Shown one piece after another: positions 36,722 to 47,061 of a stretch of 64,000 bases of DNA. Position numbers and translations under genes: made by a program. Under the pieces are notes generated by a model. That model was not told where the DNA came from. It worked only from the letters and a program-made list of their open reading frames with translations, and searched no databases. The DNA comes from Lysobacterales bacterium (GTDB taxonomy: Bacteria; Pseudomonadota; Gammaproteobacteria; Xanthomonadales; Marinicellaceae), in contig JAGRJR010000004.1 in the NCBI GenBank assembly GCA_020442635.1, positions 1 through 64,000 of the forward strand, given 5' to 3'. The number at the start of each line of letters is the position of its first letter. The first letter of the stretch is position 1.

Positions 36722-37498
36722 TCAAATATTCAAGAGATTAATATTGGTTAAAAATTCTAACCAGAGTTTGTTTAATGTGTTGGCTTGTTCTGATAGTTTT
36801 AATCTTTGATTCAAATAACAGGACTTGGCATGTTCCAATTGAATGGCGTGAATGTGGTTATCGGGTTGACCGTAATTGCGGGTAATAAAACCACCCTTGA
36901 AGCGGCCGTTATTGACGAATGTGAACTTGGATTGTTTGGACAAATGTTCCATCAGTTGCCGTTCAATTTCAGCTGAACAGCTTTTTCCAGCAAAGGTTCC
37001 CACATTGATGTCTGGTAATTGACCCTCAAAAAACCTCGGCACTTCATCATCGATACTGTGCGCGTCTATTAATAGACAAAAACCAAATTGTGCCTTTGCA
37101 GCGGCAATCATCTCAGCCAGCTGCTTATGGTAAGGTTGCCAATAGGTTTCAATGCGGCGTTTGATTTCGGCTTGATCGGGTTGTTGACCCGCTTGATAGA
37201 TATCTTTGAAATCAAATGTGCTGGTAGGGCACAATTCGGTTTCGGTTTGGTTTTGATACAAAGCCTCACCAGTGGCAGGACGATTGAGATCGATTACATG
37301 CCTGGAATAATTGGCTTTGATTTTTGAGTATTTGAGGTTTTCAAATTCAAACACTTCGCTGATCAACAAATCACGATCAGATGAGCCAATCACCGCAGGG
37401 TTCATTTGGCTCAAAATGTCATCAGGAATCAGCGCACCATCGTGCGGCACGCTGATAACCAATGGAGATGCTTGTTGTCTTAACTCAAAGATGGACAT
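36722..37498 (-). CDS. hutG: N-formylglutamate deformylase
   Basis: HutG of this type hydrolyses N-formylglutamate to glutamate and formate, the last step of the five-step histidine degradation route. The 258-residue protein has the family features VPHDGALIP near the N-terminus, SRHVIDLNRP, LLIDAHSIDDEVP and NGRFKGGFITRNYGQP. Its start overlaps the end of hutH by 19 bases. This branch also needs imidazolonepropionase (HutI) and formiminoglutamate deiminase (HutF), which are not in this window. Confidence 0.9.
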   Translation of the reverse strand: MSIFELRQQASPLVISVPHDGALIPDDILSQMNPAVIGSSDRDLLISEVFEFENLKYSKIKANYSRHVIDLNRPATGEALYQNQTETELCPTSTFDFKDIYQAGQQPDQAEIKRRIETYWQPYHKQLAEMIAAAKAQFGFCLLIDAHSIDDEVPRFFEGQLPDINVGTFAGKSCSAEIERQLMEHLSKQSKFTFVNNGRFKGGFITRNYGQPDNHIHAIQLEHAKSCYLNQRLKLSEQANTLNKLWLEFLTNINLLNI

Positions 37499-39006
37499 AG
37501 TGCGGGCAAAAATTGATTCAACTCGCCTGATAATACCAGTTGTTGCATGTGATTGATATCTGGAGCCAACAATCGGTCTTTATCCAAAAAGGCCACATCT
37601 TCACGGACTTTTTGATAAACCGAGTACAAGGCATTCGAGGTTTTCAAACCCTCATGAAAATCAATACTCTGACAAGAAGCCATGATTTCTATACCCACGA
37701 TGGTAGCCGTATTCTCTGACAAGTCAGTGAGCTTGCGACCCGCAAACGTTGCCATTGAAACATGGTCTTCCTGATTGGCTGAGGTTGGAATGGTGTCCAC
37801 ACTGGCCGGATGTGCCAATGTTTTGTTCTCTGAAGCCAAAGCCGCTGCGGTAACATGGGCAATCATAAAACCTGAGTTTACGCCGGAATCGGGCACCAAA
37901 AATGCCGGCAAACGACTCAAGTTAGGATCAATTAACATCGCCATCCGGCGTTCTGACATATTGGCCATATCGGTGATGCCAATGCCCAAAAAGTCGGCCA
38001 CCAAGGCCACGGGTTCAGCGTGGAAATTACCACCGGACAACACATCACCTTCTTCAGCAAATACCAAGGGATTATCGGTGGCTGCATTGGCTTCAATCAG
38101 TAATTTCTCCGCCACATAGTTGATGGTGTCCAACACCGCGCCCATCACCTGTGGTTGGCAACGCAAGCAATAAGGATCTTGTACACGGTCACAGTCTTCA
38201 TGCGACACCACAATTTCACTGTCTTTGAGCAAACCTCGAATGGCACGTGCCACCTGGATTTGTCCCACTTGTCTTCTGGCTTGGTGAATGCGCTCATCAA
38301 AAGGAGCCAGAGAGCCTTTAGCCGCATCAATCGACAACGCACCAGCCAAGATGGCGGCATTGAAACAATTTTCCACCAAGAACAAACCCTTCAAAGCCAA
38401 AGCGGTGGAAACCTGAGTACCATTGAGTAAGGCCAAACCTTCTTTAGGTCCCAACTTAATGGGTGTCAAACCCGCCTCATTCAAAGCTTGCATGGCCGGC
38501 ACCTGCTCACCCTGGTAAATCACATCGCCCAGGCCAATCATGGCAGCCGTTAAATGCGCCAAAGGAGCCAAATCTCCGGATGCACCCACCGATCCTTTTT
38601 CAGGAATGATGGGGTAAATTTCATGGTTCACCATATTGAGTAACAGCTTCAGCGTATTGGGGTGAATACCCGAAACGCCTTGCGATAAGCTCATGGCTTT
38701 CAGCGCCATGATCAATCGGGTGGTGTTGGTATCAATCGGCTTGCCCACACCCGTAGCATGCGAAATGACCAGATTGCGTTGTAAAGTATCCAATTCTTCT
38801 TTGGCGATTTTCACATTGGCCAACAAGCCAAATCCGGTATTCACACCATAAACGGTTTCATCCGAAGCCGCTACATCCTCAATGGTTTTGCGCGAACGAA
38901 TCACCCCTTGTAACATGTGGTCATCCACTTGAATGGTGACTGGCTGCTGCCAAATATCACGCAAATCTTTTAAAGTAAAACCTTCACTGCTGATGGTAAA
39001 TGTCAT
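37480..39006 (-). CDS. hutH: Histidine ammonia-lyase
   Basis: HutH removes ammonia from histidine to form urocanate. From the ATG at 39006 (GGAG upstream) the product is 508 residues, the usual size. The autocatalytic MIO cofactor motif is present as GSVGASGDLAPLAHL. Other family blocks are VYGVNTGFG, the LLNGTQVSTALAL segment, and the C-terminal SANQEDHVSM. It lies in the hut operon after a small membrane gene and before hutG. Confidence 0.96.
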   Translation of the reverse strand: MTFTISSEGFTLKDLRDIWQQPVTIQVDDHMLQGVIRSRKTIEDVAASDETVYGVNTGFGLLANVKIAKEELDTLQRNLVISHATGVGKPIDTNTTRLIMALKAMSLSQGVSGIHPNTLKLLLNMVNHEIYPIIPEKGSVGASGDLAPLAHLTAAMIGLGDVIYQGEQVPAMQALNEAGLTPIKLGPKEGLALLNGTQVSTALALKGLFLVENCFNAAILAGALSIDAAKGSLAPFDERIHQARRQVGQIQVARAIRGLLKDSEIVVSHEDCDRVQDPYCLRCQPQVMGAVLDTINYVAEKLLIEANAATDNPLVFAEEGDVLSGGNFHAEPVALVADFLGIGITDMANMSERRMAMLIDPNLSRLPAFLVPDSGVNSGFMIAHVTAAALASENKTLAHPASVDTIPTSANQEDHVSMATFAGRKLTDLSENTATIVGIEIMASCQSIDFHEGLKTSNALYSVYQKVREDVAFLDKDRLLAPDINHMQQLVLSGELNQFLPALCPSLS

Positions 39007-39094
39007 TTTGTTTCTCCAAAACCATTTGTTAATATTAAAACGATTTTCATAATTTATTTTCAACTTATTAAGTTAATCATTAGCCAAGGAAAAT

Positions 39095-39565
39095 TTATTG
39101 GAAATCACTCTCGTCAACACTTTGTAGACTTCGTGTTGAGTTATATTTATAGGCATAAATAACAACTGTAGTCAGCAATATTGCAACAAATGAGCTAATT
39201 AAAGATGCCAAATTGAAAGATTCAACTGATAGATAAATTACCGAAACTGAAGGTAAAACCCCTCCATTTGGTGTATCAATATATGGTGTAGGGCTTATTA
39301 ACAAACTAAAAGGTAATATTTTGATGATTTTAACAAACATAGTATCCTTGCTTCTTTTTAGCAGACTTTTTATGACCAGATAAAATATCCAAGCTATGCA
39401 GCCAAACCAAACAAATAATAGTAAAGAAAATTCTCCCATAGATTCACCAGAAGCATGAGCAGTTTGTACAACGACCATCAACAAAGTCATAACTGCCCAC
39501 CAAATTTTCTTAATACTTATATCTTGTAGTGAATCTTCCATAAAATTAATAGTTATTACTTTCAT
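39095..39565 (-). CDS. Small membrane protein inside the hut operon
   Basis: I do not recognise this 156-residue protein. It has about three hydrophobic helices (IWWAVMTLLMVVVQTAHA, FSLLLFVWFGCIAWIFYLVI, ASLISSFVAILLTTVVIYAY). Its frame begins 2 bases after the hutU stop, so it is probably cotranscribed with hutU and hutH. The second Met (39541) is an equally good start. It does not resemble the HutT-type histidine permeases, which are much larger. Confidence 0.55.
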   Translation of the reverse strand: MKVITINFMEDSLQDISIKKIWWAVMTLLMVVVQTAHASGESMGEFSLLLFVWFGCIAWIFYLVIKSLLKRSKDTMFVKIIKILPFSLLISPTPYIDTPNGGVLPSVSVIYLSVESFNLASLISSFVAILLTTVVIYAYKYNSTRSLQSVDESDFQ

Positions 39566-39567
39566 CC

Positions 39568-41241
39568 TTATTTATTCAACATCGGTAAATTCAAACCATT
39601 TTCTTGGGCATATTGCTTGGCAATGTCATAACCGGCATCAGCATGGCGCATCACGCCAGTTGCTGGATCATTCCACAACACGCGGTTGATTCTTTCTGCA
39701 GCTTCATCACTGCCATCACAACAAATCACCACGCCTGAATGTTGTGAATAACCCATGCCCACACCACCACCGTGATGCAATGACACCCAAGTGGCACCAC
39801 TGGCTACATTCAACATGGCATTCAGTAAAGGCCAATCGGAAACGGCATCCGAACCATCCATCATGCTTTCGGTTTCACGATTAGGTGAAGCCACCGATCC
39901 AGAGTCCAGGTGATCACGACCAATAACTACTGGCGCTGACAATTCTCCATTTTTGACCATTTCATTGAAGGCTAGACCCAATTTATGTCTTAAGCCCAAG
40001 CCCACCCAACAAATTCTCGCAGGTAAACCCTGAAAGCTGATGCGTTCCCTCGCCATATCCAACCAGTTGTGCAAATGCGGATCATCCACAATGATTTCTT
40101 TGACTTTCTGGTCTGTTTTGTAAATATCTTCAGGATCACCTGACAAGGCAGCCCATCTGAACGGACCCACGCCGCGACAGAACAAAGGACGGATATAAGC
40201 AGGTACAAATCCCGGAAAATCAAAGGCATTCTTTACCCCTTCATTATAAGCTTCCTGACGGATGTTGTTGCCATAATCCACCGTTGGGATGCCCAGGGCA
40301 TGAAAATCCAGCATAGCTTTTACCTGTACTGCCATGGATTTTCTGGCTTCTGTCGCCACCAATTTGGGGTTGTCTTGCGCTGCTTGGCGCCATTGTTCAA
40401 CCGTCCAGCCTTGCGGTAAATAGCCGTTCACTGGGTCATGGGCTGAGGTTTGGTCAGTGACCAAATCAGGTCTGATACCACGCTGATACAACTCATGAAA
40501 GATATCGGCTGCGTTGCCCAGCAAACCGATTGAGATGGCTTCGCCTTTTTCCAAAGCCTCATTGAGCATGGTCATGGCTTCATCTACAGAATATGCCTTT
40601 TTATCCACATAGCGTGTTTTGATGCGAAAATCGATGCGGGTTTCATCACATTCCACAGCAATCATGCAATAACCTGCCATGGTCGCGGCCAAGGGTTGCG
40701 CACCACCCATACCACCCAATCCACCGGTTAAAATCCACTTACCCTGGGTATCGCCATTGAAATGTTGTCGGCCTGCTTCTACAAAAGTTTCATAAGTACC
40801 TTGCACAATCCCTTGTGAACCGATGTAAATCCAGGAACCTGCAGTCATTTGACCGTACATCATCAGGCCTTTTTTATCCAATTCATTGAAATGATCCCAA
40901 TTGGCCCACTCAGGTACCAAATTAGAATTGGCAATCAGTACCCTTGGTGCATCTTTGTGGGTGGTAAATACACCAACGGGTTTTCCCGATTGCACCAATA
41001 AGGTTTGATTGTCTTCAAGCGCCTTCAAACTCTCAACAATGGCGTCATAACATGCCCAATTACGGGCTGCACGCCCAATGCCACCATACACCACCAGTTC
41101 CTCTGGACGTTCAGCCACCTCTGCATCCAGATTGTTCATCAACATGCGCAATGGCGCTTCGGTTAACCATGATTTGGCATTCAGTTGAGTGCCTCTCGGG
41201 GCGGTGATTTTTCTTGTTTTATCAATTCGACTGTCAGTCAT
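39568..41241 (-). CDS. hutU: Urocanate hydratase
   Basis: HutU converts urocanate to imidazolonepropionate with NAD as electrophile. The 557-residue product shows the usual family length and the blocks [53 protein letters not shown] and [21 protein letters not shown] ribosome-binding site precedes the ATG. It is the first enzyme gene of the operon, 15 bases after the marR-type gene. Confidence 0.97.
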
Positions 41242-41256
41242 GTGATCTCCTGGTGT

Positions 41257-41769
41257 TTATTTGCTTATTTTTTGTTTCAAATTTGGATTGTTCTGTTGTT
41301 TCAATGCTTCAAAACGGGTCAATAAATCTTTGCGCTTTAAACTGTCAATGGCATCATTCAAAACTTGATAAAGATTGGCACCAATCTCTCTGGATAAATC
41401 CTCATAAACATGCAGCAATGAGTTCTCCTCCAACAGAGCGGCTTGTGCCCTGCCCGCTTCAGTGAGTCGGTAGATGGTGCGACGTTTGTCTTGTTGGTCT
41501 TTGATTTTTATAACCAAACCCAAGTCAATCAGCCTCGGCAACTTTTGTTTGACTAATTGGTGTGATTGCTGCAACTGCTTGGCCAAATCTGCCAGGGAGT
41601 TATCATCGGATTGGTACAAGTAATGAATAATGGAACAAGACTTAACTGGCACAATGATACCTAACTGTTCGAGTAAAGGTTGTATCTGAGCTTTAATTAA
41701 TTGCCCCAAATCATCGGCTTGTTTTCCAATAAATGACTTACTGTTATTAAGATAAAATGACTTGCTCAT
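41257..41769 (-). CDS. MarR-type winged-helix regulator of the hut operon
   Basis: The 170-residue protein has a winged-helix core (about 45-120): SIIHYLYQSDDNSLADLAKQ, LQQSHQLVKQKLPRLIDLGL and a wing IKIKDQQDKRRTIYRLTEAG. This is a MarR-like architecture. It is the first gene of the hut operon, directly behind a sigma-70-like promoter and two palindromes, so autoregulation and control of hut is likely. Most gammaproteobacterial hut operons use the GntR-family HutC instead. The inducer would probably be urocanate or histidine, which is inference. Confidence 0.82.
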   Translation of the reverse strand: MSKSFYLNNSKSFIGKQADDLGQLIKAQIQPLLEQLGIIVPVKSCSIIHYLYQSDDNSLADLAKQLQQSHQLVKQKLPRLIDLGLVIKIKDQQDKRRTIYRLTEAGRAQAALLEENSLLHVYEDLSREIGANLYQVLNDAIDSLKRKDLLTRFEALKQQNNPNLKQKISK

Positions 41770-41778
41770 GACTATTTA

Positions 41779-41804
41779 TGCAACATGTTGCGCAATATAT
41801 TGCA
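41779..41804. promoter_or_regulatory. Double palindromic operator upstream of the hut operon
   Basis: Two perfect 12-bp palindromes lie head to tail: GCAACATGTTGC (41780-41791) and GCAATATATTGC (41792-41803). They lie just downstream of the predicted -10 box of the hut promoter and so cover the probable transcription start. Their centres are 12 bp apart, roughly one helical turn, so two dimers could bind on nearly the same face. The likely ligand is the MarR-type protein encoded immediately downstream. Confidence 0.75.
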
Positions 41805-41805
41805 T

Positions 41806-41834
41806 ATTATTCAAATAATGTCATTTATTGTCAA
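41806..41834 (-). promoter_or_regulatory. Sigma-70 promoter of the hut operon
   Basis: On the minus strand a consensus TTGACA (41829-41834) is followed after 17 bases by AATAAT (41806-41811). The palindromic operator begins two bases further downstream. This would be the promoter for marR-hutU-hutH-hutG. Confidence 0.75.
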
Positions 41835-41938
41835 TATAACATTTGTCACTTTATCTATTGAATCATAAAATAAGAATACATCTTGCATATGAGAATGGTT
41901 ATCATTACGATATAAGAAATTCATCATCCTACTTAGTA

Positions 41939-42535
41939 ATGAACTGGACTATTAAATACACCCCAAAATGGAAAAATAACCAAGAAGCTCTCTTAACTCT
42001 AGTTAGCAGCCACCAGCGACACCCTCTCAGGGAATGGTATGGCCCCTTGGCAGAATTGATTTTTTGCAGCAGCTACAAACATTTGTCAAAACATATTAGT
42101 ATGACAACCCAACAGTTCGATATAGAAAAACAATTGGCACAATTTATACTCATGCAGGCCTGCTTTTTACATCAAAAATGTTTACACGAATACCAAGTCA
42201 ATCAGGACACAAAAAAAGCAGGCCTTACTAACAATAACGATCTCGCAGAATTACTGCTGTTCATCAGGATGACATCCAATCACCCAAATCAGCATTCACT
42301 CATGACTTTTCATAACGCTCAAATACCCTGGTGTGATGATTTTGAAACTCGAATAGACAACTTGATAAATAGCAAATTAATCCAACATATTCGTTATAAA
42401 AACATGGATTTTTTTGATAAAAACCCCTATCCACATGATCACATTCTTGATTTACACGATAAAGTGCTTTTTGATTATCAGCAAAATTTTCCTATCAGAG
42501 AACATCAGAAACTCATTGTTGGCAAACTCTTTTAA
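41939..42535 (+). CDS. Unknown protein with possible diverged Fur/Irr-like C-terminus
   Basis: From the ATG at 41939 (MNWTIKYTPK) the product is 198 residues; the frame is open further upstream with only a TTG start. I do not recognise a family. The last 80 residues recall a Fur/Irr-type regulator by eye: a helix-turn-helix-like stretch ending LINSKLIQHIRYKNMDFFD, then KNPYPHDHILDLHDKVLFDY, similar to the YFDTNxxxHHHF region of Irr. The metal ligands are only partly present, so function should not be assumed. It is divergent from the hut operon and shares its upstream region. Confidence 0.45.
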   Translation: MNWTIKYTPKWKNNQEALLTLVSSHQRHPLREWYGPLAELIFCSSYKHLSKHISMTTQQFDIEKQLAQFILMQACFLHQKCLHEYQVNQDTKKAGLTNNNDLAELLLFIRMTSNHPNQHSLMTFHNAQIPWCDDFETRIDNLINSKLIQHIRYKNMDFFDKNPYPHDHILDLHDKVLFDYQQNFPIREHQKLIVGKLF

Positions 42536-42762: not shown

Positions 42763-45312
42763 TTACTGGTCCTTCACCAGACTTTCGATTCTTAGTTGTA
42801 TTTCATTGATCAGTTCATCATCGGGCTTAGTTTCCTGTAACGCTTTACTCAGCATAAGTTGATAAGTATTAAATGCTTCTGTTTCATTGCCAAGATACAA
42901 ATGAATTGAAGCAAGATTTTTCCATGCTCTTACCACGTGTCTTTTCATTGGGCGTTTTAATTCATTATATATATCAAGTGCCTGAGTAATTGTTACCAAA
43001 GCCATGTCAAATTTATGCTGCAACGTATAATTTTCACTCAGTGAAACCATTTGATCGGCAACAAAGCGATTATTATCGGTTCCCAAAATATCTACAATGG
43101 TAGAAATTGCTTTTTTAAACAGCTGTTCAGCTTCAAGATAACTTTCAGAATCCGTCATTAATATCTGCGCCTTATTCCCCAAAACTGTCGCATAATCAAT
43201 ACTTTTCAAATCATTAGAATGATAAATTTCAAGGGCTATATCATTATACTCTTTGGCTTTTTCGTAGTTATTAAGTGCACGGTAGGCCCTTGAAATCTGA
43301 TCATATGTTATGGCAGTATAGGGATGATTGTGACCTAGAATCTTTTCCCTGTAAGCCGCAATTTCTAAACCAGTTTCTATGGCTTTATCGTATTGCTGTA
43401 AATCTGTATATATAGTTGCTAAATTTGCACGTAATACAGTTTTATACTCCATATCTTCGTCGTTATTTTCATCAAGGTATGTGAGCGCCCTTTCCATATC
43501 AGCTTTGCCAGATAAAAAATCACCAGAATTGGCTTTGATTAGCCCAATGTAATTATAAACGGTAACCAAATCTAACTTATGATGCTCTTCATCTTTTAGA
43601 TAAAACTGTAATAACTGATGAAATAAATCAATCGCTTGTTGATGTTTACCTTGTTCCTCAAAAGCAGCAGCTTGATTAAACTTTAATTTCAAGTAATATG
43701 AATTTTCTGTAAACGAGTGGTTTTCAGCAAGATGAACTGCCTGTGAACTGAGTTCCTCAGCTCTTTGATAGTTCTCTGAAAACAACTCAAGCTCAGAAAG
43801 GTCTGCCATTATTGCGATTTGTTTCTTTATATCAACTATGGTTCGATTTTGAAACAATTGCAAAACCTGTTCAAATTGGGTCCTAGCTAAATCATACGCA
43901 CCTTGCTTGCGATAAATGTTTGCAATTATAGATTTCATTTTAATCAACACGGCTGGATTATTCTTCAATTCTTCATCCACCCTTTTGACACCATCGGCAA
44001 GGATTTGACTTGCTGTAATTTCTTCACCGAGTTTTAGGTATGGATCGGATGCAGTAAAAAATCCACCTAGGAACTTTGTCACTTGTTCGGCTTCATCCCT
44101 TGCTGTTTCGGCTTCTTTTTGCGCTTTTTGAGCCATAGTTTTGGCTGATTCTGCCTGTTGTTTTTGCTGCTTAAGATCCAGCGTGTATTTACTGAATACC
44201 AGAATTGAAATCAACACCAACGCAAGCGTGAGCAACAGTTTTGCTCTTCGTTTGGGTTTTGCTATTATTTTTTCAATCATTATCATGGCATCAAAAGCAG
44301 TAGGTCTTGATGCTGGCTTAATTGATTTCATTCGATTGATCAGATAGGTCATATCTACAGGAGCGCCTTTAACAGCATCGGTTATTCCGCTTTTTGCTCT
44401 ACTAAACAAATCTTGATTGCTGAGATTAGGTTGGTGGGCTGCCTGCCTTGAAAACATGTCTTGAAAAATAATCCCAAGCGAATAGATATCAGAAGCGGCA
44501 TCGACTTTTTCCTGATTCGCTTGTTCAGGAGACATATACCCTAATGTACCCACAATGGTTCCTGCTTCAGTTTTTGAAACAGAAAACCCTTCATTAATAC
44601 TGGATTGTTCCAAAACATTTTGATGTTTAGTTGATGCCGAAATTCCAAAATCAAGTATTTTTATATTTTTGTTTTGATCAATTATCACATTATCAGGCTT
44701 GATATCTCTGTGCACAATGCCTTCCTTATGAGCAACCACTAGTCCGTTTAGTATTCCTTGTGCAATCCTAAGTTTTTCTGAGTTCGCAAGCTTATCTACT
44801 GGATAATTATCAAGTGTTTCACCATCGACAAATTCAAGAACCAGAAAATCAATATCACCTATTTCTATGATATTAAAAATTTTACAAATATTTTCATGAT
44901 TAAGTTTGGATAGTATCAATGCCTCTCTTCTAAATCGCTCTTTGGCATTTTTATGTGGCCGATAAATGCCACGAATGGTTTTAACAGCCACTTTCCTTTG
45001 TAATTGTTCATCTTCACCCAGATAAACTTCACCCATTCCTCCTTTACCCAGGAGTTTGATTAATTTGATATTGGCAACAGATTGTCCAATAAGGTTTTTT
45101 TCAGTTGATGCTGACTGTATCAAATTATCTAATTCTGGATTGCCTTTAAGAAAAACCGTTCGAGTTTCTGAATCAGATAAAAGCTTAACTACCTGATCAA
45201 TAATTTCGGCATCCTCTTCACTGGAATTTAAAAATTCAAAAGCATCCGCTGTTCCCATCGTAACCACTCTTTTGAACAGGGCGTTAATCCTTTTTTCATC
45301 AACAGAATTCAT
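42763..45312 (-). CDS. Membrane-bound Ser/Thr protein kinase with C-terminal TPR domain
   Basis: The product of about 849 residues has a eukaryotic-type kinase domain (about 75-345) with GKGGMGEVYLGED, VAVKTIRG, the catalytic loop IVHRDIKPDNV, DFGIS, and GTLGYMSPEQA. One membrane helix (LLLTLALVLISILVFSKYTL) follows near residue 370. A coiled coil rich in Lys, Gln and Glu comes next, then about ten TPR-like repeats. Kinase domain inside and TPRs outside is the likely topology. It follows a sigma/anti-sigma pair on the same strand, 175 bases away, and probably belongs to the same signalling system. Confidence 0.9.
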   Translation of the reverse strand: MNSVDEKRINALFKRVVTMGTADAFEFLNSSEEDAEIIDQVVKLLSDSETRTVFLKGNPELDNLIQSASTEKNLIGQSVANIKLIKLLGKGGMGEVYLGEDEQLQRKVAVKTIRGIYRPHKNAKERFRREALILSKLNHENICKIFNIIEIGDIDFLVLEFVDGETLDNYPVDKLANSEKLRIAQGILNGLVVAHKEGIVHRDIKPDNVIIDQNKNIKILDFGISASTKHQNVLEQSSINEGFSVSKTEAGTIVGTLGYMSPEQANQEKVDAASDIYSLGIIFQDMFSRQAAHQPNLSNQDLFSRAKSGITDAVKGAPVDMTYLINRMKSIKPASRPTAFDAMIMIEKIIAKPKRRAKLLLTLALVLISILVFSKYTLDLKQQKQQAESAKTMAQKAQKEAETARDEAEQVTKFLGGFFTASDPYLKLGEEITASQILADGVKRVDEELKNNPAVLIKMKSIIANIYRKQGAYDLARTQFEQVLQLFQNRTIVDIKKQIAIMADLSELELFSENYQRAEELSSQAVHLAENHSFTENSYYLKLKFNQAAAFEEQGKHQQAIDLFHQLLQFYLKDEEHHKLDLVTVYNYIGLIKANSGDFLSGKADMERALTYLDENNDEDMEYKTVLRANLATIYTDLQQYDKAIETGLEIAAYREKILGHNHPYTAITYDQISRAYRALNNYEKAKEYNDIALEIYHSNDLKSIDYATVLGNKAQILMTDSESYLEAEQLFKKAISTIVDILGTDNNRFVADQMVSLSENYTLQHKFDMALVTITQALDIYNELKRPMKRHVVRAWKNLASIHLYLGNETEAFNTYQLMLSKALQETKPDDELINEIQLRIESLVKDQ

Positions 45313-45487
45313 CAATCAGGCTCATTTAAGTATCAGGAGATTATCTCACAAATAACTTAATTTCAAACCAATGTATCATACAAACCTTTGCATAAAAATT
45401 GAGTGTAAGACCTGTAAACCGAGAATCAAATAAAGAACTCTAACAATTCATTGGGCTGGTGATGACGGCTCAGGTAAGATTTGAGAT

Positions 45488-46126
45488 TTAATCTACGCTA
45501 AAAGGCAAAGATTCAACCCTGCTGTCGGCAATATAAGCATCGAGCCAGTAATTGCCGGGTTTAAGGTAACTGCTTGGAATGGCAACTTGCAAATCACCCA
45601 TGCCAAAAGGTTTAAGATCGGTGATGGTTAATATATTTTTTTCTTGTTGGTGTTGTCGCAAAACCACATTGTATGTTGATGATTCAATTTCAGTCAATTG
45701 GACCACCAAAATTACCCTGCTGTTTTCCTTAGACAATTCTATGGTCGTCACAGGATTAAAACCTGAGTCGATGGTTCCTCTTATGTGACTTAAAGTAACT
45801 ATAGGAATATTGGCTTCAATTGACAGTGTTTGTTGTTTTTGAAGCATAAAAAAAGTAGTCGTACTGGCTGCCACAGCTCCCAACAGGGTGTAAATCAATT
45901 TCTCTTTTATACCATTAAGAAAACGATGTGACTGCTTACTTTTTTGTAACGGCTTTTTTGCAAACAGTTCTTTCGCCGCTGTTCTTATAGCTAGTTCATT
46001 TTGTATGTCATCAAGAACCTCTGGTTGATCCGCAAGCCACAATTCCAGTCGTTCAACAGCTGCATCGTCAAGTCGACCGTTCAGATAATCTTCAATGGTA
46101 TCGACATCAGGCTTATTGTCATTCAT
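45488..46126 (-). CDS. Probable transmembrane anti-sigma factor
   Basis: The 212-residue protein has an N-terminal acidic cytoplasmic part (VDTIEDYLNGRLDDAAVERLELWLADQPE) like anti-sigma N-termini, but no zinc-finger HxxxCxxC motif. One membrane helix follows near residues 76-93 (LIYTLLGAVAASTTTFFML), then a beta-rich outer domain. It starts inside the last codon of the sigma gene (ATGA overlap), a strong indication of a functional pair. Confidence 0.72.
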   Translation of the reverse strand: MNDNKPDVDTIEDYLNGRLDDAAVERLELWLADQPEVLDDIQNELAIRTAAKELFAKKPLQKSKQSHRFLNGIKEKLIYTLLGAVAASTTTFFMLQKQQTLSIEANIPIVTLSHIRGTIDSGFNPVTTIELSKENSRVILVVQLTEIESSTYNVVLRQHQQEKNILTITDLKPFGMGDLQVAIPSSYLKPGNYWLDAYIADSRVESLPFSVD

Positions 46127-46779
46127 TTTAGCACCATTGTAATCAACATGATAAAAGGCAAAAAGGTCATGAGCTTTTGTATGCTATTGGTGTATGTTTT
46201 GTTGTTTCTTCTATCTGCATCAACAAGCGCCTTTAATCTCAATTTTGCTCTGTAAATCACCTTATCAAACTGGTCAGGACTTAAATCAAGCTGTTGGCAA
46301 ACATCAGCTTTTTTCCATCCTTCAAAGTAATGATATTTCAAAATCAATTGATCTCTTTCCATAGTCATGCATTCAAGCATTTTTTGTGCCAATAGTTTTT
46401 TTTTGTCAAAATCATATTGTTCAAATAAATCAGATGTCGTGCTTTCAAGCTGATCCAACCATTCATTGCTTACATCAGATTGGTAACGCTTGTCTTTCCG
46501 GTAATATTCATGGGCAATATTAATGGCGCAGCTTCTTAAAAAAGATTTAAACTTTTTAGCATCTTTAATTTTTTTCTGCTTTATGGCATCGACTGCTGTG
46601 AGAAATGTGTCATGAACCACATCTTCATGAAACTGGCTTTGTGGAAACCTTATTTGGACAATGACTAAAAGCCATTGATAATATTTTTGTGTCAGTAAAA
46701 TCAGAGCTTCATCATCATCTTGATAAATTCTGGCAATCAATTCAGCATCTTCTGATTGCTTTACACTGTTCCCCCTCAC
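46123..46779 (-). CDS. ECF-type sigma factor with hydrophobic C-terminal tail
   Basis: The sigma-2 region (LLTQKYYQWLLVIVQIRFP, EDVVHDTFLTAVDAI, SFLRSCAINIAHEYYRKDKR) and the sigma-4 region (ILKYHYFEGWKKADVCQQLD, LSPDQFDKVIYRAKLRLKAL) are clear. The C-terminus continues past sigma-4 into a hydrophobic stretch (KLMTFLPFIMLITMVLK) that could be a membrane helix. The start is uncertain: the frame is open to 46911, but the sigma domain begins soon after the GTG at 46779, with AGAGGA about 11 bases upstream. It is coupled to the anti-sigma gene, and the kinase gene follows. Confidence 0.78.
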   Translation of the reverse strand: MRGNSVKQSEDAELIARIYQDDDEALILLTQKYYQWLLVIVQIRFPQSQFHEDVVHDTFLTAVDAIKQKKIKDAKKFKSFLRSCAINIAHEYYRKDKRYQSDVSNEWLDQLESTTSDLFEQYDFDKKKLLAQKMLECMTMERDQLILKYHYFEGWKKADVCQQLDLSPDQFDKVIYRAKLRLKALVDADRRNNKTYTNSIQKLMTFLPFIMLITMVLK

Positions 46780-47061
46780 AACGAGATAATTCCTCTGAAA
46801 AAATATGTTCACAAAGTAAAAATCGTTCATAAACTGCAACAAAACATTGAGCAGTTTTAAACTATTGACTCCATCATTATAAACAAAATTTATCATAAAG
46901 TAAGCATGCATCGACTATGCCATTTGTATAACGTGTTTTTTTTTCATGATTTATCTCACCTGGGTGTTAAGTTACAAATTTTGTCAGAGTGAAACCACAA
47001 AGGAGTGGTCAAATCATGGTTCTATTCGTTAAAATGGGGACATTAACTCACCATCTAAATC

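Follow-up and report, generated by a model that had tools for sequence, protein, structure and literature searches.

A MarR-family protein with a tandem palindromic operator as the probable regulator of the hut operon in Marinicellaceae

The window, as the whole 64,000-nucleotide stretch of DNA analysed here is called, contains a hut operon whose first gene encodes a MarR-like protein, and the question raised by this locus is whether that protein, rather than HutC, controls the degradation of histidine. HutC belongs to the GntR family, which is unrelated to MarR, and has a different operator. In a sequence-only reading of the DNA, a TTGACA-17-AATAAT promoter had been described as followed at once by two abutting palindromes over the predicted start site, and these by a MarR-like gene and then hutU. 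Promoter and palindromes were all located, at 41834-41780 of the minus strand, and Pfam and NCBIfam agree on the identity and order of the two genes (Table 1).

Table 1. Coordinates of the features discussed, in the window and at four loci of genus g3
Feature	Coordinates	Strand	Support or remark
-35 hexamer TTGACA	41829..41834	-	promoter scan
-10 hexamer AATAAT, 17-bp spacer	41806..41811	-	promoter scan
Operator module 1, GCAATATATTGC, perfect 12-bp palindrome over predicted start site	41792..41803	-	
Operator module 2, GCAACATGTTGC, perfect 12-bp palindrome abutting module 1	41780..41791	-	
MarR-family regulator (marR), 170 aa	41257..41769	-	Pfam MarR_2, AlphaFold2 model, structural matches
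hutU, urocanate hydratase	39568..41241	-	TIGR01228, 955 bits
156-aa ORF between hutU and hutH	39095..39565	-	without confident family
hutH, histidine ammonia-lyase	37480..39063	-	TIGR01225, 687 bits
hutG, N-formylglutamate deformylase type, overlapping the end of hutH	36722..37498	-	Pfam FGase, 214 bits
Divergent 230-aa ORF	41843-42535		no Pfam match for the window's copy
Small ORF of genus g3, locus L132	8173-8508		
Small ORF of genus g3, locus L136	8187-8543		
Small ORF of genus g3, locus L137	8220-8546		
Small ORF of genus g3, locus L140	3912-4235		

The regulator gene, its promoter and the hut genes

The regulator is matched by the Pfam MarR_2 model (PF12802; 36.5 bits, cut-off 27, E 5.3e-9), the PF01047 model falls narrowly below its cut-off (23.0 vs 24.6), and no GntR or HutC profile matches the protein at E 0.001. 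An AlphaFold2 model of the monomer (mean pLDDT 83.7) has helices and two wing strands, and the structures closest to it are those of E. coli MarR, MepR, and MexR, the first with a Z of 15.0 over 135 residues and an rmsd of 5.1; as modelled, the regulator has an ordinary MarR fold. The recognition helix lies at about residues 70-82 (HQLVKQKLPRLID), within the best-conserved stretch of the protein (SHQLxKQK).

The promoter pair (41834..41806) agrees with the consensus at 11 of 12 positions; promoter-like matches as such are not rare, two having been found where 2.5 are expected from shuffles. Two nucleotides separate the -10 hexamer from the first module, and a start predicted 6-8 nt below the -10 falls within 41792-41803. 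Single 12-mers of the pattern GCAANNNNTTGC are near chance level in the window (4 found vs 2.47 expected) and were dropped as evidence, as were single 12-mers across the genome, where 85 sites within one mismatch compare with 76 for the reversed control. The abutting pair with at most one mismatch was matched once in the window and never in 100 shuffles, and the search of the bacterium's own genome for such pairs, which the earlier reading had suggested, returned it as the sole match at 0 or 1 mismatch in 3.54 Mb. The whole 24-mer is also near-palindromic, with 20 of 24 positions symmetric in the window copy. A looser pattern gave three sites with two mismatches elsewhere in the own genome, and a wider regulon built on these was dropped, as their scores by the weight matrix described below are at most 7.9 bits (7.9 at L003 and 0.1 at L004, with L002 outside the best 45 loci). 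Between the operator and the listed ATG of marR lie 10 nt (41770-41779), in which no clear ribosome-binding site was seen by eye; marR may start elsewhere than at this ATG.

Further downstream, the hutG product scores 265 bits against TIGR02017, below the cut-off of 279 for that model, and the true start of hutH is likely to lie further inside the listed reading frame. The hutI and hutF genes, which the pathway also requires, stand back to back on another contig (C218), 64 nt apart, and a matrix scan found no operator in this intergenic stretch, so that the operator would govern only hutU, hutH, and hutG of the pathway. Because the genome has hutF together with a deformylase-type hutG, its route is of the type described for Pseudomonas in the part of the source available to us (PMC5343134). 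From its sequence, the 156-aa ORF separating hutU from hutH appears to be membrane-bound, and in genus g3 a different type of small ORF, of ~110 aa and membrane-like by eye, stands between the same two genes. A role in the histidine pathway is possible for these small ORFs.

The divergent ORF across the promoter (41843-42535) is of a type seen repeatedly in genus g1, next to either marR-hutU or hutU, and homologues were seen at L006, L016, L018, L019, L021, L022, L024, L025, L113, L114, and L115. Beside it is a Fur-box-like sequence (AATGATAATCATTCTC type), with 14-18 of 19 positions agreeing with the consensus, and so the ORF may be iron-regulated. Farther along, a neighbouring cluster at 42763-46911 encodes an 850-aa serine/threonine kinase bearing TPR repeats, a protein of 212 aa that has no Pfam match, and one of 262 aa that resembles an ECF sigma factor.

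Distribution of the regulator and the double site

Comparison was made across 61 genomes, the own genome and 60 relatives. A match to the regulator with an E no higher than 0.001 was found in 28 of them, and 21, the own genome included, have an orthologue of at least 52% identity; in all 21, which belong to two genera, the regulator gene directly precedes hutU. The search of other hut loci for palindrome pairs placed the double site before marR-hutU in 18 of the 21, with at most three mismatches to GYAAYATRTTGCGCAAYATRTTRC, and the palindromes are thus not conserved at unrelated genes only. As far as sequence can tell, the comparison supports the earlier proposal of MarR-type control of hut. 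The other three loci (L012, L018, and L020) comprise two that are cut by contig ends and one with a decayed half: in G025 the right module stands alone on contig C112 after an adapter-like stretch, a second contig of that genome having the full site at its edge (C130:5-28); the contig of G015 starts inside the left module; and G006 is a marR-hutU genome with the right module only, the left having decayed. At L012 1-33, the start of C112 in G025, sequence that looks like a Nextera transposon adapter is joined to the operator middle, and from its sequence this junction looks like an assembly artefact at the palindrome.

A 24-position weight matrix was made from the 18 sites, with L012, L018, and L020 left out, and scores 30-40 bits at its training loci. 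Within three mismatches, 24 sites are present in 22 of the 61 genomes, and the reversed control gave 0. Eighteen stand at marR-hutU and one is that at the G025 contig edge, while three accompany other genes of the MarR family (two in G047 and one in G054); at these other genes, too, the palindromes adjoin a relative of this regulator. The remaining two are in G013 and G010; the former (C3:410926) was set aside, as it lies within a 691-codon reading frame, and the latter is on contig C21 with three mismatches. A scan of named genomes yielded 26 loci, seven from Kangiella and the other 19 with marR followed by hutU. The 19 probably overlap largely with the 61-genome set, and their holders include Marinicella litoralis, M. 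marina, M. meishanensis, and M. sediminis; 16 score at least 30 bits, the rest being the decayed site and the two that are cut.

Seven hutU loci without marR have no site, their best matrix scores being -2.8 to -14.7. Five are of the same genus (G001, G002, G008, G010, and G011) and two of another (G020 and G024); G005 and G007, also of the same genus, are cut inside hutU and are uninformative on marR. In G001, G002, and G011, hutU is immediately adjacent to a homologue of the 230-aa ORF of the window, and no marR or site intervenes. As five hutU loci of the same genus, all with upstream DNA, have neither marR nor site, hut expression does not depend on the arrangement. In the HutU tree, G001, G002, and G011 group with other families of the order, at forks that are not strongly supported, and G008 and G010 stand among the marR-bearing genomes, which suggests loss of marR there.

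The own genome has no match over the TIGR02018 cut-off for HutC (220 bits; best E 6e-9). The earlier reading had contrasted the MarR-type protein with HutC as the usual regulator in proteobacteria, and the contrast stands for this genome, but HutC is not usual in this order: it exceeds the cut-off in 5 of the 61 genomes, compared with 58 that have hutU.

The orthologues in Kangiella (40-48% identity) were outside the matrix training set, and the site stands before marR in all seven Kangiella loci, at 32.2-39.2 bits. No hutU was found in the flanks of the seven; the linkage of the regulator to the hut genes, present in every genome with a close orthologue, is absent in Kangiella. Divergent from marR, across the site, is an M19 dipeptidase gene in six of the loci (its M19 identity being given by Pfam in two), and none was found at L152. 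In 7/7 a TTGACT hexamer lies 17 bp from the operator and reads towards the dipeptidase side. It sets TAACAT or TAATAT inside the operator (18-bp spacer; other spacers are also possible), at the same position in the module as the -10 of genus g3 in all seven. Because this promoter reads towards the dipeptidase and no clear one was seen from the site towards marR, the dipeptidase is, judging from these sequences, likely to be the main target in Kangiella, and autoregulation there is doubtful.

A genome-wide search of six of the seven Kangiella genomes (all but that of L150) found one site at marR in each, and one genome has a second, weak site. In all six, HutC precedes hutU, away from marR (TIGR02018 at 276-280 bits in three genomes, the rest by tblastn), and the 300 bp upstream of hutU yielded no site (best -10.8 bits). 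The operator therefore follows the regulator and not hut, since Kangiella sites stand at marR while hutU is elsewhere without one. With the same operator and an orthologous protein beside a dipeptidase gene, the ligand may equally be a compound from outside histidine degradation. The HutU proteins of Kangiella stand among the marR-bearing rows of the tree, which makes exchange of hutU with Kangiella likely on this reading of the tree; the swap of regulators may have run in either direction.

More distantly, three MarR homologues of 27-33% identity carry the site at 23-34 bits beside non-hut genes, namely rpe (G054), an ABC transporter with an M1-type permease (G047), and a second gene in G047. 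At L123 890-5847 (G047), homologue and operator precede an ABC transporter ATPase and then a permease with an M1-peptidase-like domain. The homologue at L026 (37% identity) has a three-module variant with a matrix score of only 2.6 bits, and three modules in 12-bp phase occur at two distant loci, L026 and L027. Among 14 different homologous proteins, HQL is at the head of the recognition helix in eight and absent in six. Seven of the eight score 23-38 bits: the four SHQLVKQK proteins (that of the window and three of Kangiella) have 32-38 bits, the two SHQLTAQR proteins 27 and 34, and the one AHQL protein 23. The eighth is that of L026, with PHQL and its three-module array, and the six homologues without HQL have scores of -3.4 or less. 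It is a plausible, if tentative, extension that these proteins constitute a distinct MarR subfamily with an operator code of its own, in which a helix of the form (S/P/A)HQLxx(Q/A)(K/R) would read contiguous GCAAYATRTTGC modules, in phase and two or three in number, on which dimers would stack. Gene and operator would then make up one cassette serving different operons (hut in Marinicellaceae, the dipeptidase in Kangiella, and perhaps the ABC exporter in G047), with HutC displaced in the case of hut.

Promoter geometry, proposed mechanism, and alternatives

In genus g1 a TTGAC-type -35 lies 24-26 bp before the operator in eight of nine loci, the exception being L023 with a weak hexamer at 23 bp, and in genus g3 the distance is 15 bp in all nine; the -35 is tied with other hexamers in L016 and L019, and both weak and tied in L013. 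This shift of ten bases, about one helical turn, leaves the operator over the predicted start site in g1 and the -10 inside the first module in g3, and both arrangements fit repression by polymerase block.

We consider it quite probable that the marR-hutU-hutH-hutG run has in this protein a local regulator dedicated to it. What comparison shows is that the protein and the operator go together, that the gene is linked to hutU, and that HutC is missing. From the promoter geometry we infer that the protein would act as a repressor: dimers would occupy the pair of 12-bp palindromes, GYAAYATATTGC followed by GCAAYATATTRC, which abut with their centres 12 bp apart, and, bound over the -10 box or the transcription start, would shut out RNA polymerase. 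A compound of the pathway would release the regulator and open the operon. Because the run begins with marR, the regulator would control its own gene from this site as well. In Marinicellaceae it would take both the role of HutC and its place directly before hutU. Urocanate is the most likely inducer; it is a natural guess, made because urocanate is listed as the ligand of HutC in the available part of the source (PMC4349456), and the dipeptidase context in Kangiella means that histidine or a dipeptide is also possible.

The site before marR without a nearby hutU, in the seven Kangiella loci and at the three distant homologues, and the hut operons without marR in the same genus are what would be expected if the MarR protein controlled its own gene only, the hut genes lying downstream by chance or under another promoter and the ligand being unrelated to histidine. 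We find this improbable, given that marR precedes hutU throughout the 21 genomes of two genera and that only 15 nt separate the two genes in the window, so that a transcript from the marR promoter would run into hutU. Some MarR-family proteins activate, and activation or dual action from the same site would be in keeping with the family; it is nevertheless very unlikely here, as the site lies at or below the chosen -10 hexamer in all 18 Marinicellaceae promoters measured, which is a road-block position, and the -35 agrees with TTGACA at 5 or 6 of 6 positions in 16 of them. Least credible is that the palindromes are leader RNA hairpins or sites of another regulator. Part of the double site could be transcribed in g1, but in g3 the -10 is inside the first module, which is thus not in the RNA, no terminator-like site was found in 41650-42050, and across families the site goes with the marR gene and not with hut.

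The arrangement of the protein on the DNA may be read in two ways. A single dimer on the whole 24-bp dyad, centred between TTGC and GCAA, rather than one dimer per 12-bp palindrome, would suit the symmetry of the 24-mer (16-24 of 24 positions across the 18 full sites) and its centre TTGCGCAA, identical in 15 of the 18. This arrangement seems rather unlikely to us, because it leaves unexplained the three modules in 12-bp phase at L026 and L027; these favour, without settling, one dimer per 12-bp module.

Comparison with known systems

If the proposal is right, a dedicated MarR-type repressor joins the regulators of a textbook operon. The two groups would also present a natural replacement of regulators: Kangiella has HutC before hutU and its MarR gene elsewhere, and Marinicella has the MarR gene before hutU and no HutC. 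The strictness of the operator (24 bp, about one site per genome) would allow members of the subfamily to be found by DNA alone, and the identity of the inducer could be tested by comparing the protein of Marinicella with that of Kangiella.

No dedicated hut regulator of the MarR type turned up in a literature search. Among the literature matches listed for the double-palindrome motif, nearly all of which match by the 8-mer TTGCGCAA alone, no title is about a MarR operator, and a search for two-dimer MarR operators found that binding mode described for TetR-family proteins, in sources available in part. Judged by its sequence, then, the system appears to be an ordinary local repressor, in a pairing of family and pathway for which no report was found, with a distinctive tandem operator. 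HutC is likewise a local regulator of histidine degradation, encoded by the gene that precedes hutU, an arrangement present in Kangiella. E. coli MarR, P. aeruginosa MexR, and S. aureus MepR have the same fold as the window regulator (VIA-align Z 13.9-15.0) at 16-18% identity in the structural alignments. They are autoregulated repressors with more than one palindromic site; unlike the hut regulator they control drug efflux, and the sequence and spacing of their operators differ from those of the hut double palindrome.

In the part of the regulon survey available to us, HutC is reported in 113 genomes of 18 taxa, and no MarR-type substitute for it is named for histidine (PMC5343134). The nearest report to the Marinicellaceae hut regulator is PA3458 of Pseudomonas aeruginosa, although it is neither dedicated to hut nor linked to it. 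This MarR-type protein is reported to have a binding site before hutU, which is named among its potentially direct targets; the accessible portion of the paper presents it, under osmoadaptation, as broadly regulating genes for stress and amino acids and as binding most strongly at PA3459-PA3461 (PMC8070244), and by that description it is set apart from a dedicated hut regulator. In Corynebacterium, HutR of the IclR family is probably involved in hut, to go by gene position in the extract seen (PMC3350403); as described there, it too is a regulator other than HutC at a hut cluster, from a different protein family and phylum. By the partial description available, the takeover of an amino-acid degradation operon from its usual regulator by a MarR-family protein has a likeness, in another pathway, in HmgS, the predicted regulator of tyrosine degradation in Alteromonadales (PMC5343134).
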